The notes beneath the pieces were generated by a model. That model was not told the DNA's origin, searched no databases, and worked only from the letters and a program-made list of their open reading frames with translations. Shown in pieces: positions 1,841 through 7,029 of a DNA stretch of 64,000 nt. Position 1 is the first letter of the stretch; every line of letters begins with the position of its first letter. The translations under genes and the position numbers were made by a program. Source of the DNA: Kaistia dalseonensis (GTDB taxonomy: Bacteria > Pseudomonadota > Alphaproteobacteria > Rhizobiales > Kaistiaceae); NCBI RefSeq assembly GCF_030814715.1, contig NZ_JAUSVO010000002.1, forward strand, positions 806,001-870,000. The letters are read 5' to 3'.

Positions 1841-1869
1841 TGTAACGAAACTGGCGGCGCGTCCGTATT
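1841..1869 (+). promoter_or_regulatory. putative ECF-sigma promoter for the Met-rich peptide/cytochrome b/MsrP/MsrA operon
   Basis: The sequence GGCTGTAACGAAAC (TGTAAC at 1841-1846) is followed after 17 bases by CGTATT at 1864-1869. The same 14-base block, with CGTAAC after the same 17-base spacer, lies upstream of msrB on the other strand. GTAAC-type -35 elements with CG-rich -10 elements are typical of ECF sigma factors, including SigF-like factors of alphaproteobacteria that control MsrP-type operons. If used, it gives a leader of about 190 nt before the ATG at 2067. No sigma or anti-sigma gene lies in the window. Confidence 0.6.
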
Positions 1870-2066
1870 GCCTATCGAGACCGAGCGCCAACGCCGCGAA
1901 GGCCGCTCCCGAATACATCGAGATCATAGCGCCGCGTCTTCGTCGCGACGTTCAGAAGATCGGAGACCGCAAGGTCACCGAACGCCTCGCCATGGCCCGA
2001 AGCCGGTGGCGATCCCAGAGGGCACACAAACCGTGTGCGAAACGACCATCAAGGATGTCTCAGATC

Positions 2067-2357
2067 ATGAACACGCTCTCCCGGACTTTCGCCCTTTCCC
2101 TGTTCGCGCTGACGCTCGGCGGCGGCATCGCCCAAGCCGAAGACGCGATGAAGCCCGATGCGATGGCCTCGGATTCCATGATGGCCGACTGCCTGAAGAA
2201 GGCCGACATGGAGACGGACGCGATGAAGAAGCAGGCGATGGCGGAGGCCTGCAACACGGATTCGATGGCCTCCGACGCCATGAAGCCGGATGCCATGGCA
2301 CCCGACGCGATGAAGCCCGATGCGATGGCGCCGGACGCCATGGCGCCCGCCAAGTAA
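2067..2357 (+). CDS. secreted Met-rich MxKDx-repeat peptide
   Basis: A 96-residue protein with a Sec signal peptide (about residues 1-24, cleavage after GGGIAQA) and a mature part of about 72 residues containing 13 methionines. The mature part is built from DAMKP, DAMAP and DSMAS pentapeptide-like repeats, matching the family named pentapeptide MXKDX repeat protein. It also has two cysteines (DCLKK, EACN). Met-rich periplasmic peptides of this kind (MrpX in Azospira) act as sacrificial oxidant sinks that are regenerated by a methionine sulfoxide reductase. Its position as first gene before a cytochrome b, an MsrP-like enzyme and MsrA fits that role. ATG 2067 is preferred because the signal peptide starts there; ATG 2055 is a possible alternative adding four residues. 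Function is inferred, not shown. Confidence 0.8.
   Translation: MNTLSRTFALSLFALTLGGGIAQAEDAMKPDAMASDSMMADCLKKADMETDAMKKQAMAEACNTDSMASDAMKPDAMAPDAMKPDAMAPDAMAPAK
2274..2348 (+). repeat. in-frame tandem repeats coding for DAMKP/DAMAP units
   Basis: Two 30-base units coding for DAMKPDAMAP followed by one 15-base unit DAMAP, at the 3' end of the Met-rich peptide gene. Third codon positions differ between copies (GAC GCC, GAC GCG, GAT GCG), so the amino-acid repeat is kept while the DNA has drifted, which suggests selection on the protein repeat. Confidence 0.85.
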
Positions 2358-2390
2358 CGGGCCACTCGATAACGAGTTGCGATCACGCTG

Positions 2391-2419
2391 GCGGACCGGG
2401 TGCATATCGCCTGGTCCGC
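2391..2419 (+). other. inverted repeat between the Met-rich peptide and cytochrome b genes
   Basis: GCGGACC (2391-2397) and GGTCCGC (2413-2419) form a perfect 7-bp stem with a 15-base loop. It lies in the 97-bp gap between two genes of a probable operon. There is no T-run, so it is not a classical terminator. It could stabilise the upstream mRNA or attenuate read-through, giving more peptide than enzyme. Confidence 0.4.
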
Positions 2420-2454
2420 TACGCATTGTTCAGGCGCACCAGGGAAGGCCCGAC

Positions 2455-3300
2455 ATGGTCACCATCGACGCCGACGCCAGACCGGCCACCAGGATCCTGG
2501 TGAAGCGGCATGCGCTGTCCGTGCGTATCACGCACTGGATCAATGTCCTCTGCCTGAGCTTCCTCATCCTGAGCGGCCTGCAGATCTTCAATGCGCACCC
2601 CGCGCTCTATTGGGGGCAATACGGCGCCGATGCCGACACGCCGTTCATTGCGATCGAAGCCGTCCGGGACGGGGATGGCCTGCGCGGGGTCACGACGATC
2701 GGTCCGGTCTCGCTGACGACGACCGGCGTGCTCGGCGTATCGAGCTATAATGGCCAGGAGCGCGCCCGTGCCTTTCCCTCATGGCTGACGATACCGAGCT
2801 ATCGCGATCTCGGCATGGGGCGGTACTGGCATTTCTTCTTTGCCTGGCTCTTTGCCATCAACGGTGCCGTCTATCTGGTCTACGGTTTCATATCGGGCCA
2901 TTTCCGCCGCGATCTGGCACCGAAGCTCGAGGAATTGAAGCCGGCCCATATCGGGCATGAGATCATCACCCACGCCCGGCTCGACTTCCCGAAGGGCGAG
3001 GCGGCGCGTCGCTACAACGCGTTGCAGAAGCTCGCTTATCTCGGCGTCGTGGTCCTGCTGGCGCTGATGGTCCTGACCGGCCTCACCATGTCGCCCGGTG
3101 TCAATGCGATCGTTCCCTGGCTCGTCGATGTCTTTGGCGGCCGGCAGTCGGCCCGCACCATCCATTTCATCTGTGCCACGCTGATCGTCGCCTTCATCAT
3201 CGTGCACCTCGTCATGGTCCTGCTATCGGGCGTCTGGAACAACCTGCGCTCCATGGTGACCGGCCGCTATGCGATCAGGCTCGAAGGACCGCGGACATGA
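2455..3300 (+). CDS. cytochrome b/b561-type membrane protein (redox partner of the MsrP-like enzyme)
   Basis: About 281 residues with four hydrophobic helices: near residues 22-45 (ITHWINVLCLSFLILSGLQ), near 130-150 (YWHFFFAWLFAINGAVYLVY), near 190-212 (GVVVLLALMVLTGLTM) and near 235-262 (ATLIVAFIIVHLVMVLL). Histidines in THW, YWHF, TIHF and IVHL are likely ligands of two b haems, as in the Ni-hydrogenase/cytochrome b561 family. The family carries electrons from the quinone pool to a periplasmic partner. The next gene, a molybdopterin enzyme, overlaps by four bases (ATGA), so the pair likely works together as MsrQ and MsrP do, although this protein is not the MsrQ fold. The ATG at 2455 has AGGGAAGG just upstream. 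Confidence 0.85.
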   Translation: MVTIDADARPATRILVKRHALSVRITHWINVLCLSFLILSGLQIFNAHPALYWGQYGADADTPFIAIEAVRDGDGLRGVTTIGPVSLTTTGVLGVSSYNGQERARAFPSWLTIPSYRDLGMGRYWHFFFAWLFAINGAVYLVYGFISGHFRRDLAPKLEELKPAHIGHEIITHARLDFPKGEAARRYNALQKLAYLGVVVLLALMVLTGLTMSPGVNAIVPWLVDVFGGRQSARTIHFICATLIVAFIIVHLVMVLLSGVWNNLRSMVTGRYAIRLEGPRT

Positions 3301-4070
3301 AAAAGCTCCTGACCCGCCGCAGCTTCATCGTCGGCTCGACGATCGGCGCCGGCCTGTCGCTTTCCGGCTGCGACGTGCTGACCGGCAGCGACAGCTTCAG
3401 CCGCGTGCTGAAACTCGGCGAAACGATCACCATGGGTGCTCAGCGCCTCTTTCTCTCCGACAAGGCACTCGCGCGCGAGTTCACCGAGGCCGACATGTCG
3501 CCGGTCTTCAAGTCGAACGGCACCCACAGGCCGGACAGCGCCGAATATGCGGCGCTTGCCGAAAACAACTTCGTCGATTGGCGCCTCGTCATCGATGGAC
3601 TTGTCGACCAGCCGCTCAGTCTTTCGCTGGCCGAACTGAAACGATTGCCCTCCCGCACCCAGATCACCCGGCATGACTGCGTCGAGGGCTGGAGCGCTAT
3701 CGGCAAATGGACCGGCGTGCCGCTCGGCCTGCTGCTGCAGGCGGCCCGCCTCAAGCCGAACGCGCGCTATCTCGTGTTCCACTGCGCGGATGAATATGAA
3801 AAGACGCTCGACGGCACCGGCCAGTATTATGAGAGCATCGATCTGGTCGATGCCTTCCATCCGCAGACCATCCTCGCCTATGGCATGAATGGTACCGATC
3901 TGCCGATCCCGAACGGGGCGCCATTGCGCCTGCGGGTCGAGCGCCAGCTCGGCTACAAGCACGCCAAATATCTGATGCGGATTGAAGCGGTCGAGAGCTT
4001 CGCCGCGTTCGGGCGCGGCAATGGCGGCTTCTGGGAAGATCGCGGCTACGAATGGTACGCCGGGATTTGA
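3297..4070 (+). CDS. MsrP/YedY-like molybdopterin-dependent oxidoreductase, Tat-exported, likely lipoprotein
   Basis: 257 residues of the sulfite-oxidase-fold molybdopterin family. The N-terminus has a twin-arginine motif (LTRRSFIVG) and a hydrophobic stretch ending LSLSGC, a good lipobox with Cys25 followed by Asp. It is therefore probably a Tat lipoprotein held on the periplasmic face of the inner membrane. Cys128 (TRHDCVEGW) is the likely molybdenum ligand. The C-terminal part has the family's typical RVERQLGYKHAKYLMRIE. The closest described role is reduction of methionine sulfoxide in periplasmic proteins (MsrP) with electrons from a membrane haem protein. It overlaps the cytochrome b gene by ATGA and sits between a Met-rich peptide and MsrA, which supports this role. 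Nitrate- or sulfite-related activity cannot be excluded by sequence. Confidence 0.85.
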   Translation: MKKLLTRRSFIVGSTIGAGLSLSGCDVLTGSDSFSRVLKLGETITMGAQRLFLSDKALAREFTEADMSPVFKSNGTHRPDSAEYAALAENNFVDWRLVIDGLVDQPLSLSLAELKRLPSRTQITRHDCVEGWSAIGKWTGVPLGLLLQAARLKPNARYLVFHCADEYEKTLDGTGQYYESIDLVDAFHPQTILAYGMNGTDLPIPNGAPLRLRVERQLGYKHAKYLMRIEAVESFAAFGRGNGGFWEDRGYEWYAGI

Positions 4071-4145
4071 ATGCGCGTGCCGGGTGAACCGGCACGCCGC
4101 CGACACCACATGAAGGTCCACACCCAGTTTTCGAGGAGATCGGAC

Positions 4146-4919
4146 ATGATGTTTCAATCCAGTCGCACGGGGTCGATGAGCGCGGAAGCCGTAAGCAGGG
4201 CGATGGCCTTGCCGGCCCGCAATGTTCGTCGCGGCCTGCTGGCCGGTCTGGTCGCGTTGCCCATTCTCATCCTGTTCGGTCATGGGCTCGGCCATGCGGC
4301 CGAGGACGCGGTCGTGATCCCCGCACCGATCGTGGACGAGGCGGCGAGCGGCACGTCCGAGGTGGCGGTCCTGGCCGGTGGCTGCTTCTGGGGCGTGCAG
4401 GGCGTGTTCCAGCACGTCAAGGGCGTCAAGAATGCCGTATCCGGTTATGCCGGCGGCGCGGCCGACACGGCTCAATACGAGACGGTCAGCCGCGGCGATA
4501 CCGGCCATGCGGAATCGGTCCAGATCACCTTCGATCCGCGCGAGGTCAGCTATGGCCGTCTGCTGCAGATCTATTTCTCGGTCGCCCACAATCCGACCGA
4601 GCTGAACCGCCAGGGGCCCGACACCGGCACGCAATATCGCTCGGCGCTGTTCCCGATGAACGCGGAGCAGGCGAAAGTCGCCGCAAGCTATATCGCGCAG
4701 CTCGACAAGGCGAAGCTGTTCCCGGCGCCGATCGTCACCCGGATCGAGCCGTTCAAGGGCTTCTATCCGGCCGAGGCCTATCATCAGGACTTCCTGACCT
4801 TGAACCCGAGCTATCCCTATATCGTCTATAATGATCTGCCGAAGGTCGAGAACCTGTCGCAGGTCTTCCCGAACGAGTATCGCAAGGATCCCGTTCTCGT
4901 CGGCGCGACGAAATCCTGA
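4146..4919 (+). CDS. msrA: peptide-methionine (S)-S-oxide reductase MsrA, exported form
   Basis: 257 residues. The catalytic motif GCFWG has its cysteine at residue 80, and the conserved GYAGG, YETVSRGDTGHAE and HNPTELNRQGPDTGTQYRS blocks are present. The enzyme reduces the S epimer of methionine sulfoxide in proteins. It carries a 50-residue N-terminal extension with RRGLLAGLVALPILILF and an AxA-like end (LGHAAED), so it is probably exported or membrane-anchored in the periplasm; usual MsrA is cytoplasmic. ATG 4146 is chosen because AGGAG lies seven bases upstream; an in-frame ATG at 4071 has no such site. It follows the MsrP-like gene by 75 bp, likely the same operon, and ends at a strong hairpin. 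Confidence 0.95.
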   Translation: MMFQSSRTGSMSAEAVSRAMALPARNVRRGLLAGLVALPILILFGHGLGHAAEDAVVIPAPIVDEAASGTSEVAVLAGGCFWGVQGVFQHVKGVKNAVSGYAGGAADTAQYETVSRGDTGHAESVQITFDPREVSYGRLLQIYFSVAHNPTELNRQGPDTGTQYRSALFPMNAEQAKVAASYIAQLDKAKLFPAPIVTRIEPFKGFYPAEAYHQDFLTLNPSYPYIVYNDLPKVENLSQVFPNEYRKDPVLVGATKS

Positions 4920-4933
4920 GCGCCTGGTACAAA

Positions 4934-4960
4934 GGAAGCGGCCGATCAGAGGCCGCTTCC
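4934..4960. terminator. bidirectional terminator between msrA and msrB
   Basis: GGAAGCGGCC (4934-4943) and GGCCGCTTCC (4951-4960) form a perfect 10-bp stem with a 7-base loop in the 61-bp gap between convergent msrA and msrB. Short T-runs follow on both strands (GTTT on +, TTTG on -), so it can serve both genes. Confidence 0.8.
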
Positions 4961-4980
4961 CGCGTTTCAAATGGAGTGAT

Positions 4981-5481
4981 TCAGGCGGCGCCGGCGGGCA
5001 CGAAGGTCATGGCGACGCCGTTCATGCAATAGCGCAGGCCCGTCGGCTCCGGTCCGTCATTGAAGACATGGCCGAGATGGCCACCGCAGCGGCGGCAATG
5101 CACCTCGGTGCGCGTCATGAAGAGTGAGGTGTCCTTCCGCGTGCCGACCGCATTGTCGAGTGGCGCCCAGAAGCTCGGCCAGCCCGTGCCGCTGTCATAT
5201 TTCGTCGTGGACGAGAACAGCGGCAGCGCGCAGCCCGCGCAATCGAAGGTTCCCGCGCGCTTTTCATGATTGAGCGGGCTGGTGAACGGTGTCTCGGTCC
5301 CTTCCCGGCGCAGCACGTCGAACTGATCGGCGGTGAGGATCTTGCGCCATTCGGCCTCCGTCTTGGTGATCTCGAAGGTTTCGGCGGCCTCGGCCGGCGT
5401 GGTCCGGCCGATCCGACCCGCCAGGACGAGAGCGAGGCTCGAGCCACCCAGCGCGAGCAGGGCATTGCGGCGTGTGATCAT
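4981..5481 (-). CDS. msrB: peptide-methionine (R)-S-oxide reductase MsrB, Tat-exported
   Basis: 166 residues. Zinc-binding pairs CAGC (Cys81, Cys84) and CRRC (Cys129, Cys132) and the catalytic Cys152 in RYCMNG are in place, with the family's WPSFW and GGHLGHVF. The enzyme reduces the R epimer of methionine sulfoxide. The N-terminus MITRRNALLALGG with a following hydrophobic run and AEAAE is a twin-arginine signal, so the protein should act in the periplasm. It converges on msrA, and its own upstream region carries the same ECF-type motif as the Met-rich peptide operon. MsrA and MsrB together would repair both epimers outside the cytoplasm. Confidence 0.95.
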   Translation of the reverse strand: MITRRNALLALGGSSLALVLAGRIGRTTPAEAAETFEITKTEAEWRKILTADQFDVLRREGTETPFTSPLNHEKRAGTFDCAGCALPLFSSTTKYDSGTGWPSFWAPLDNAVGTRKDTSLFMTRTEVHCRRCGGHLGHVFNDGPEPTGLRYCMNGVAMTFVPAGAA

Positions 5482-5531
5482 GACGATACTCCCGGTGCTT
5501 CGCGATCATGCGAAGAGGTTGGTTCGTCGGA

Positions 5532-5560
5532 GTTACGTTAGCGAAGCCCGTTTCGTTACA
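5532..5560 (-). promoter_or_regulatory. putative ECF-sigma promoter of msrB
   Basis: On the minus strand TGTAAC (5560-5555), preceded by GGC, is followed by GAAAC and, 17 bases after the hexamer, by CGTAAC (5537-5532). The 14-base block GGCTGTAACGAAAC is identical to the one at 1838-1851 and the spacer length is the same. It lies 51 bp upstream of the msrB ATG, a normal promoter distance. Confidence 0.7.
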
Positions 5561-5605
5561 GCCACATCGGTCACGACACGGTGAACCGAGCGCTCGCCCC
5601 GCCGA

Positions 5606-6247
5606 TCAGCGCGGCCGGTAGACATGCGCGACGGCCCCGGAGGGGAAGGGTGTCTGGCTCACCAGGGTCAGTTCCAGCGGCTTTTCGAGCTTGGAGAACA
5701 GCGGCAGACCCCGGCCGATCGCGACCGGGTGGATAATCAGCTGATATTCGTCGATCAGGCCGGTCGCGACCAGGCTCTGCGCGAAGCTCGCGCCGCCATG
5801 GGCAATGATGTCCTTGCCGGGTTCGGCCTTCAGCTTGGTGATTTCCTCGGCGATATCGCCGCTCGCCACGCGTGAACTGGTCCACTCGGCCAGAATCGCC
5901 GGGTCCGGAGGCGCGCCGTCCGTCCGTTCATGCAGCCTCGCGGCATCGTCGAGCGCATGCACTGTCGGCTCGGCGCCGGGGGGCGCAAGCGTGCCGCGCC
6001 GGGAGAAGATGACCTTGGGGATCGCATTCATCGGCGGCGCATAGGGTTCGGTCGAGGACGGCCAGTAGGCGACCATGTCCTGATAGGTCCGGCTCCCCAT
6101 GATGTGGAGGCCTCCTCGCCAGAGCCCCTCGATGATCCAGGCGCTCGCCGCGTCGTCGAAGCCCTTCATCAGCCAATCGACCTCGCCGTTCGGCCCGCCG
6201 ACGAAGCCATCGAGTGACATCGACATCTTCAGGATCAATCTGCGCAT
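5606..6247 (-). CDS. dihydrofolate-reductase-family (RibD C-terminal domain) protein
   Basis: 213 residues beginning MRRLILKMSMSLDGFVGGPNG, the usual start of stand-alone RibD_C/DHFR-fold reductases, followed by a GSRTYQDM segment and IIAHGGASFAQSL near residue 150. Members bind NADPH and reduce unknown pterin- or flavin-like substrates; most are uncharacterised. It is a single gene, upstream of the msrB promoter but pointing away from it, so no clear partner is visible. The fold assignment is secure and the substrate unknown. Confidence 0.85.
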   Translation of the reverse strand: MRRLILKMSMSLDGFVGGPNGEVDWLMKGFDDAASAWIIEGLWRGGLHIMGSRTYQDMVAYWPSSTEPYAPPMNAIPKVIFSRRGTLAPPGAEPTVHALDDAARLHERTDGAPPDPAILAEWTSSRVASGDIAEEITKLKAEPGKDIIAHGGASFAQSLVATGLIDEYQLIIHPVAIGRGLPLFSKLEKPLELTLVSQTPFPSGAVAHVYRPR

Positions 6248-6363
6248 GGAGTGCCCTTTTCAGTTAGCGGCGATATGGCTCACCGTTCCAGGCCAAGGAC
6301 GAATGGAGGCGACGGGCACCGACATTCGATCGCGTCTTTCGGGAGCGAAAGGCGGCCCGCCCG

Positions 6364-7029
6364 TCAGAGAACCTGCAGGCCGAAATTCGAGAGCAGGTCG
6401 GTCGCCTGGCTCCGCGATATGATGGCGCCTTTCAGCGTCGCGGCGGCGGCGAGATCGAGGGCGCCGAGATCGCAGCTCCTGAGATCGGCCCGTTCGAAGC
6501 GGCAATTGCGCAAGATCGTACCGCGCAGGCTGCAATCCTCAAAGGTCGCGTCGCGAAAATCGCACTCGCGCAATTCGGCGTCGCTGAAGTCCATCCGCAG
6601 CAGCGTCTTGTTGCGGAACGACACCTTGGGCAGGAAGGTGCTGACGAGCAGGCATTCCGCAAACTCGGTCCCGATCAGGCCGCTCTCGGCGAAATTGGCG
6701 CCGGTGAGCTTGCACTGGGTGAAGCGCGTCCGGGCGAGCCGCGATCGCGACCAGTCGGTATTGGCGAGGTCCGAGGCCTCGAACTGCGAGTCGAGTGCCT
6801 CGACCGACCGGAAGGTCGCGCCGCCGAGCCGGCAGCCGGTCCACCGCGTCTCGTTCAGCGTGGCGGCCGTGAAATCGCAGCCGGCGAACTGGCAGCGCTG
6901 GAACGAGATGCCCGTCAGGTCAAGCCTGGAGAAATCGAGCCCGCTGGCGTCGATGCCCTCGAAGGTGCGGATACCCTGCTCGATCGCGTCCAGCATGGTG
7001 GTCCGCTGCTCGCTTCCCCCGCTCGCCAT
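6364..7029 (-). CDS. pentapeptide-repeat protein
   Basis: 221 residues made largely of A(D/N)Lxx-type five-residue repeats, for example LDFSRLDLTGISF, CDFTAATL, SDLANTDW, LTGANFAESG and CDFRDATFEDCSL. Such repeats fold into a right-handed quadrilateral beta-helix. Some family members mimic DNA and protect gyrase, but most have no known role. No signal peptide or extra domain is seen. ATG 6996 (MLDAIEQ) is an alternative start. Confidence 0.88.
   Translation of the reverse strand: MASGGSEQRTTMLDAIEQGIRTFEGIDASGLDFSRLDLTGISFQRCQFAGCDFTAATLNETRWTGCRLGGATFRSVEALDSQFEASDLANTDWSRSRLARTRFTQCKLTGANFAESGLIGTEFAECLLVSTFLPKVSFRNKTLLRMDFSDAELRECDFRDATFEDCSLRGTILRNCRFERADLRSCDLGALDLAAAATLKGAIISRSQATDLLSNFGLQVL

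Follow-up and report, generated by a model that had tools for sequence, protein, structure and literature searches.

A compact set of five genes in the window, the 64-kb stretch of DNA analysed here, quite probably protects the envelope against reactive chlorine or oxygen species under the control of an ECF16 (SigF/NrsF) system. Judged from its sequence, it is a real and coherent unit of oxidant defence, and probably a functional one. We establish its gene content, the form of its promoters, its conservation and the 1-Cys active sites of its MsrA and MsrB; oxidant induction, oxidant scavenging and the role of MrpX as proposed substrate of MsrP would be carried over from published relatives.

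Layout of the locus

The sequence-only reading had listed a Met-rich peptide, a cytochrome b, an MsrP-like molybdoenzyme and two further exported reductases, MsrA and, convergent to it, MsrB. All five were confirmed by coordinates and family profiles, and both promoter motifs were found in place (1841-5560). On the plus strand, mrpX (2067..2357) is followed after 97 nt by the gene of a b-type cytochrome (2455..3300; PF01292, 85.2 bits), which overlaps by 4 nt that of the MsrP-like molybdoenzyme (3297..4070; PF00174, 123.6 bits); msrA (4146..4919; PF01625, 188.6 bits) begins 75 nt further on. The msrB gene on the minus strand (4981..5481; PF01641, 165.5 bits) converges on msrA with 61 nt between them. 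Export was assigned by eye from the N-termini, that of MsrA being a signal or anchor and that of MsrB Tat-like. The space between the convergent genes folds into a 10-bp inverted repeat (4934..4960) without a T-run, which the terminator scan did not call. Within the unit, the scan returned no sigma-70-like site and two terminator-like sites, both inside msrP, compared with 2.7 expected. A small gene in the mrpX leader was considered and dropped, as the best match of the leader peptide in other loci reached only E 2.1. The neighbouring genes are seemingly unrelated: upstream lies that of a fatty-acid desaturase (410-1483, minus), and downstream (5606-7029, minus) those of a RibD_C-domain and a pentapeptide-repeat protein.

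Promoters and sigma factor

The sequence GGCTGTAACGAAAC occurs exactly twice in the 64 kb, at 1838-1851 on the plus strand and at 5550-5563 on the minus strand; shuffled sequence is expected to give 0.03 matches with up to two mismatches allowed. Both copies read as TGTAAC-N17-CGTA, the ECF16 promoter form, one lying before mrpX (1841..1867, plus) with a leader of about 200 nt and the other before msrB (5534..5560, minus), which bears out the matching motifs noted earlier at the two ends of the unit. Genome-wide (5.18 Mb), TGTAAC-N16-18-CGWA has four sites: at mrpX, at msrB, at an ECF sigma/NrsF pair and inside an ORF on contig C7. The sigma/NrsF pair sits on another contig (C5) and is preceded by its own ECF16-form promoter. 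Chance occurrence of the motifs was ruled out by the shuffles and by three of the four genomic sites preceding sigma, mrpX and msrB. The broader pattern YGTAAC-N16-18-CGWA is not enriched (19 sites, 12 + 7, versus 154, 65 + 89, for the reversed pattern), and the informative set is the TGTAAC subset in its context only. If TGTAAC-type sites alone count, the direct regulon would be very small, comprising sigma-NrsF, the mrpX unit and msrB. With sigma and NrsF on another contig, and with a CcdA that lacks an ECF16-form site, the locus is not the self-contained island it had been taken for.

The -10 element is CGTA here, versus CGAA in the Brucella consensus, given as (T/C)GTAAC-N17-CGAA (PMC8315932). 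The CGTA form lies within the known range because the Bradyrhizobium consensus, given as GTAAC(g,a)-N14-15-(c,t)CG(t,a), allows it (PMC3420878). Of 81 sequences, relatives and window together, 70 have an ECF16-form site in the 1.5 kb before the cytochrome; the reversed control matches in none of the 81. At msrB, GTAAC is absent from the approximately 400 nt upstream in the three relatives checked (L020, L021 and L133).

The MrpX peptide

The mrpX product has 96 aa, an apparent signal sequence, 14 Met residues and cysteines at 42 and 62, and was recognized by its composition and by TIGR02953 (penta_MxKDx; 60.4 bits, cut-off 41). It had been called an MxKDx peptide; the family assignment stands, but the repeat in the window is mostly MxPDx. 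A search by composition across 81 sequences, the window among them, detected MrpX directly before the cytochrome in 58; the best candidate lay elsewhere in 14, and nine gave none. A cysteine pair is present in 54 of the 58 detected peptides (C-x(15-22)-C in 52, CPxGxTC in two) and lacking in four. Co-evolution of these cysteines with MsrA and MsrB is unsupported, the pair being common where no MsrA is linked; for the same reason, a structural disulfide or direct reaction with the oxidant is at least as likely a role for them as Msr recycling. Our literature search found nothing on MrpX cysteines, which is weak evidence as the original Azospira suillum report lay outside its coverage.

In nine loci (L043, L046, L070, L082, L089, L094, L095, L097 and L099), none with an MxKDx peptide detected upstream, a different small protein is encoded about 0.3 kb downstream of MsrP. 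It is Met-rich, looks secreted and has two cysteines, and is possibly an alternative sink.

Cytochrome b and the molybdoenzyme

The PF01292 b-type cytochrome probably supplies the MsrP-like enzyme with electrons from the quinol side. It had been described as a di-haem cytochrome b; the b type is confirmed by PF01292, and two haems are suggested by the family and by histidines H19, H27, H126, H237 and H251, which are conserved in 79 to 81 of the 81 sequences. It also matches DUF4405, below cut-off. MsrQ, the canonical partner, is a ferric-reductase-like membrane protein, and the profile search placed the cytochrome in no ferric-reductase family at E 0.001, which sets it apart from the MsrQ type.

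For the molybdoenzyme, which carries a CVEG molybdenum cysteine, the best model is MsrP, with a score of 102 bits that falls short of the NF003767 equivalog cut-off of 207; we therefore call it MsrP-like rather than a canonical MsrP. Its Tat motif is followed by the lipobox LSGC (window 3297-3375), and by pattern the same succession, Tat motif then lipobox cysteine, recurs in 77 of 81 MsrP-like proteins. Since the lipobox is present, what had been called a Tat-exported enzyme is probably a Tat lipoprotein. E. coli MsrP is not known to be a lipoprotein.

MsrA and MsrB lack resolving cysteines

MsrA has a single cysteine in the whole protein (C80, in GGCFWG) and is a 1-Cys MsrA. A cysteine after the catalytic one is absent from 30 of 30 homologues read, window included, a count that describes this family, picked at E up to 1e-60, and not all exported MsrA. 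The second MsrA of the genome has further cysteines, two of them near the C-terminus (GYCGLGGTGVSCPIG). The MsrB of the window has five cysteines, two CxxC pairs and the catalytic one in RYCMN, and reads SGTGWPSF in place of SGCGWPSF, with Thr where 6sym has Cys; it too is a 1-Cys enzyme, and SGTGWPSF is found in the MsrB of all ten best loci. The second MsrB of the genome has the same Thr plus one extra cysteine (PGSC), which we take to be an alternative resolving position. Separately, in five loci (L138, L147-L150) MsrA of this type has beside it an MsrB that is 136 to 157 aa long and carries SGCGWPSF. These MsrB proteins may be cytoplasmic, going by their length, and they speak against a general 1-Cys rule.

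A resolving cysteine is the normal route for thioredoxin-type donors, and in this group both exported enzymes, MsrA and MsrB, are without it. The two enzymes here, being of the 1-Cys type, are not expected to make the internal disulfide on which thioredoxin acts. How they receive electrons had been raised as a puzzle, and the question is real and sharper than first put, because neither thiol enzyme has a resolving cysteine; the 1-Cys sites turn the electron supply of periplasmic thiol Msrs into a concrete, testable question. PilB-type proteins fuse exported MsrA and MsrB with a thioredoxin/DsbD-like donor domain; here MsrA and MsrB are separate, and the profile search found no such domain in them. 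Our literature search found nothing on 1-Cys exported Msrs of this group, again weak evidence, as its coverage did not extend to the original Azospira suillum report.

The DsbD_TM family has a single member in the genome, a stand-alone CcdA, and no ECF16-form site lies near its gene. Several thioredoxin-like proteins were found by profile search with PF13098 and PF08534 only. Glutaredoxin would not be expected where exported MsrA and MsrB act. A redoxin-family protein on contig C2 was considered as a co-regulated electron carrier and rejected: the weak CGTAAC-type site about 2 kb upstream of it falls at what is presumably a short-chain dehydrogenase ORF, and an ORF that we take to be CcmC-like lies between that site and the redoxin, by the same assumption CcmG-like.

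Distribution among relatives

We compared the best 80 of 243 confirmed MsrP-like relatives, a sample that leans to close relatives and includes several loci cut by contig ends. The cytochrome lies directly upstream of the MsrP-like gene in 80 of these best 80, and NrsF falls within the stretch in 56. A linked MsrA follows MsrP in three of them, each with MsrB: L020 (Kaistia soli DSM 19436, of the window's genus), L021 (titled Mesorhizobium sp. BR1-1-16) and L023 (Microvirga tunisiensis), the last also with sigma/NrsF. MsrA matches upstream in L052 and L072 (41% and 37%) were left out of this count. All five genes are linked in five genomes, namely the window, L020, L021, L023 and G130 of the window's genus; G099, of the same genus, is identical to L020 by 30-mers over the sampled stretch.

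Among 199 genomes of the order, 30 have MsrA of this type, 37 have this MsrP and 19 have both, compared with 5.6 expected (Fisher tests, in which relatedness and shared ancestry are ignored). By the same tests, NrsF accompanies MsrA in 26 of 30 genomes (expected 10.1), four NrsF matches under the family cut-off having been dropped, and MsrA and MsrP still coincide in 12 genomes (expected 3.6) when the window's family is left out. Across 99 genera, MsrA counted singly is in 14, MsrP in 19 and both in 11. The co-occurrence in related genomes that the sequence-only reading had called for is thus present. Of the 19 genomes that share MsrA and MsrP, four have the two side by side by coordinates (G000, G099, G130 and G087). 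The functions therefore go together at the level of the genome, and their tight clustering is local. In 26 of the 30 stretches around MsrA of this type, some of them cut by contig ends, the gene is unlinked; four of the 30 genomes lack NrsF at cut-off, and 11 lack this MsrP. In one locus (L130; G087:C31), cytochrome, MsrP and MsrA are present without a detected MrpX, and a small His/Tyr-rich, secreted-looking ORF lies upstream instead.

Model and alternatives

In the model that we favour, oxidation of NrsF, a membrane anti-sigma factor encoded elsewhere, would free the sigma factor, which would start two transcripts, mrpX-cytB-msrP-msrA and msrB. MrpX would serve as a renewable methionine sink, and the cytochrome b would pass quinol electrons to the molybdoenzyme for reduction of Met sulfoxide in MrpX and in envelope proteins. 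The exported MsrA and MsrB would add S- and R-specific repair, presumably on the same substrates, and, because they have no resolving cysteine, their sulfenic acid might be reduced by an external thiol, be it a small thiol or a thioredoxin-like protein fed by CcdA. Caulobacter SigF answers chromate and cadmium but not peroxides or the other oxidants tried, with msrA expression unchanged, so the inducer may differ. We also count against the defence model the CGTA -10 element, the late-only effect of bcrS loss on Brucella survival (PMC8315932), the lack of an msrB site in three relatives and the MsrA genomes without NrsF or MsrP.

A first rival is a broader repair system, in which the three reductases would serve mainly envelope proteins and MrpX would be a minor co-regulated peptide, not a shared substrate. 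Exported MsrA without this MsrP (11 of 30 genomes), the unlinked MsrA genes (26 of 30 stretches, some cut by contig ends) and the L130 locus without MrpX all fit such a system, but mrpX is the first gene of the operon here and was detected directly before the cytochrome gene in 58 of the 81 sequences, and we regard general repair as rather unlikely. That the molybdoenzyme is instead a sulfite dehydrogenase is hardly credible: it does match SorA (72.7 bits) and SoxC (64.5 bits) besides missing the MsrP cut-off, and a Caulobacter YedY paralogue was described in 2012 as a sulfite oxidase subunit, but MsrP is its best model, 1xdq/1xdy its best solved relative, and its gene adjoins those of a Met-rich peptide, MsrA and MsrB.

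As to how MsrA and MsrB are recharged, we give slightly less than even chances to the route proposed for Bradyrhizobium, a CcdA/thioredoxin pair (PMC3420878), in which case the missing resolving cysteine would have no special consequence. The genome has one CcdA and several thioredoxin-like proteins, and an outside thiol protein can reduce 1-Cys enzymes (PMC4479559). The ccdA and thioredoxin-like genes, however, are not near an ECF16-form site, and the nearest candidate, the CcmG-like protein, is parted from a weak site by unrelated genes. More specific, and in our view very doubtful, is an envelope thiol-Msr pathway that would never form an intramolecular disulfide, a partner thiol resolving the enzymes instead; a candidate partner would be C42/C62 of MrpX, which would then be both sink and cysteine donor.

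Comparison with known systems

A secreted MxKDx-family peptide adjoins a cytochrome b and a YedY/MsrP-like enzyme here; the promoter has the ECF16 form, and a cognate sigma/NrsF pair is encoded elsewhere in the genome. The mrpX-cytochrome-MsrP trio is the published module known as mrpX-yedYZ in Azospira and bcrXQP in Brucella. With the SigF/NrsF-YedYZ-MrpX module of Azospira suillum (PMC5748585, PMC4623255) it has in common the Met-rich peptide, the YedY/MsrP-like molybdoenzyme, the cytochrome and the ECF sigma/anti-sigma pair. The unit had been read as an extended version of this module. Its ECF16-form promoters and its apparently exported or membrane-bound products agree with that, but the extension is not new in kind, nor is the five-gene combination, because msrA and msrB, whose products are predicted to be exported, are reported alongside sigF/nrsF, yedYZ and mrpX in two perchlorate-reduction islands (PMC4623255). 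In contrast to the published accounts of Azospira and these islands, the locus here is chromosomal with sigma/NrsF in trans; msrA lies in the operon and msrB is convergent with its own ECF16-form promoter.

The Brucella melitensis bcrXQP operon, with its bcrS-abcS pair, shares the gene order X-Q-P and the ECF16 promoter form; it is HOCl-induced and required for HOCl survival, while loss of bcrS lowered survival at the late time point only (PMC8315932). As described there, the operon has no MsrA or MsrB, and the sigma gene is adjacent. Bradyrhizobium japonicum EcfF/OsrA likewise belongs to ECF group 16, with three MetSO reductase genes, one product, an MsrA, being predicted to be periplasmic; in contrast to the present genome, where no such pair has an ECF16 promoter, a CcdA-like/thioredoxin pair, the proposed donor, belongs to the EcfF regulon (PMC3420878). 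The 1-Cys MsrA of Clostridium oremlandii also lacks a resolving cysteine and is regenerated from outside by glutaredoxin; it is a selenoprotein, whereas the enzymes here appear to be exported (PMC4479559). Set beside these systems, the new points are that both exported Msrs are 1-Cys enzymes, that MrpX has a conserved cysteine pair, and that the sole DsbD_TM protein is a CcdA without an ECF16 site. The locus gathers in one place outputs that are under ECF16 sigma control in several bacteria.
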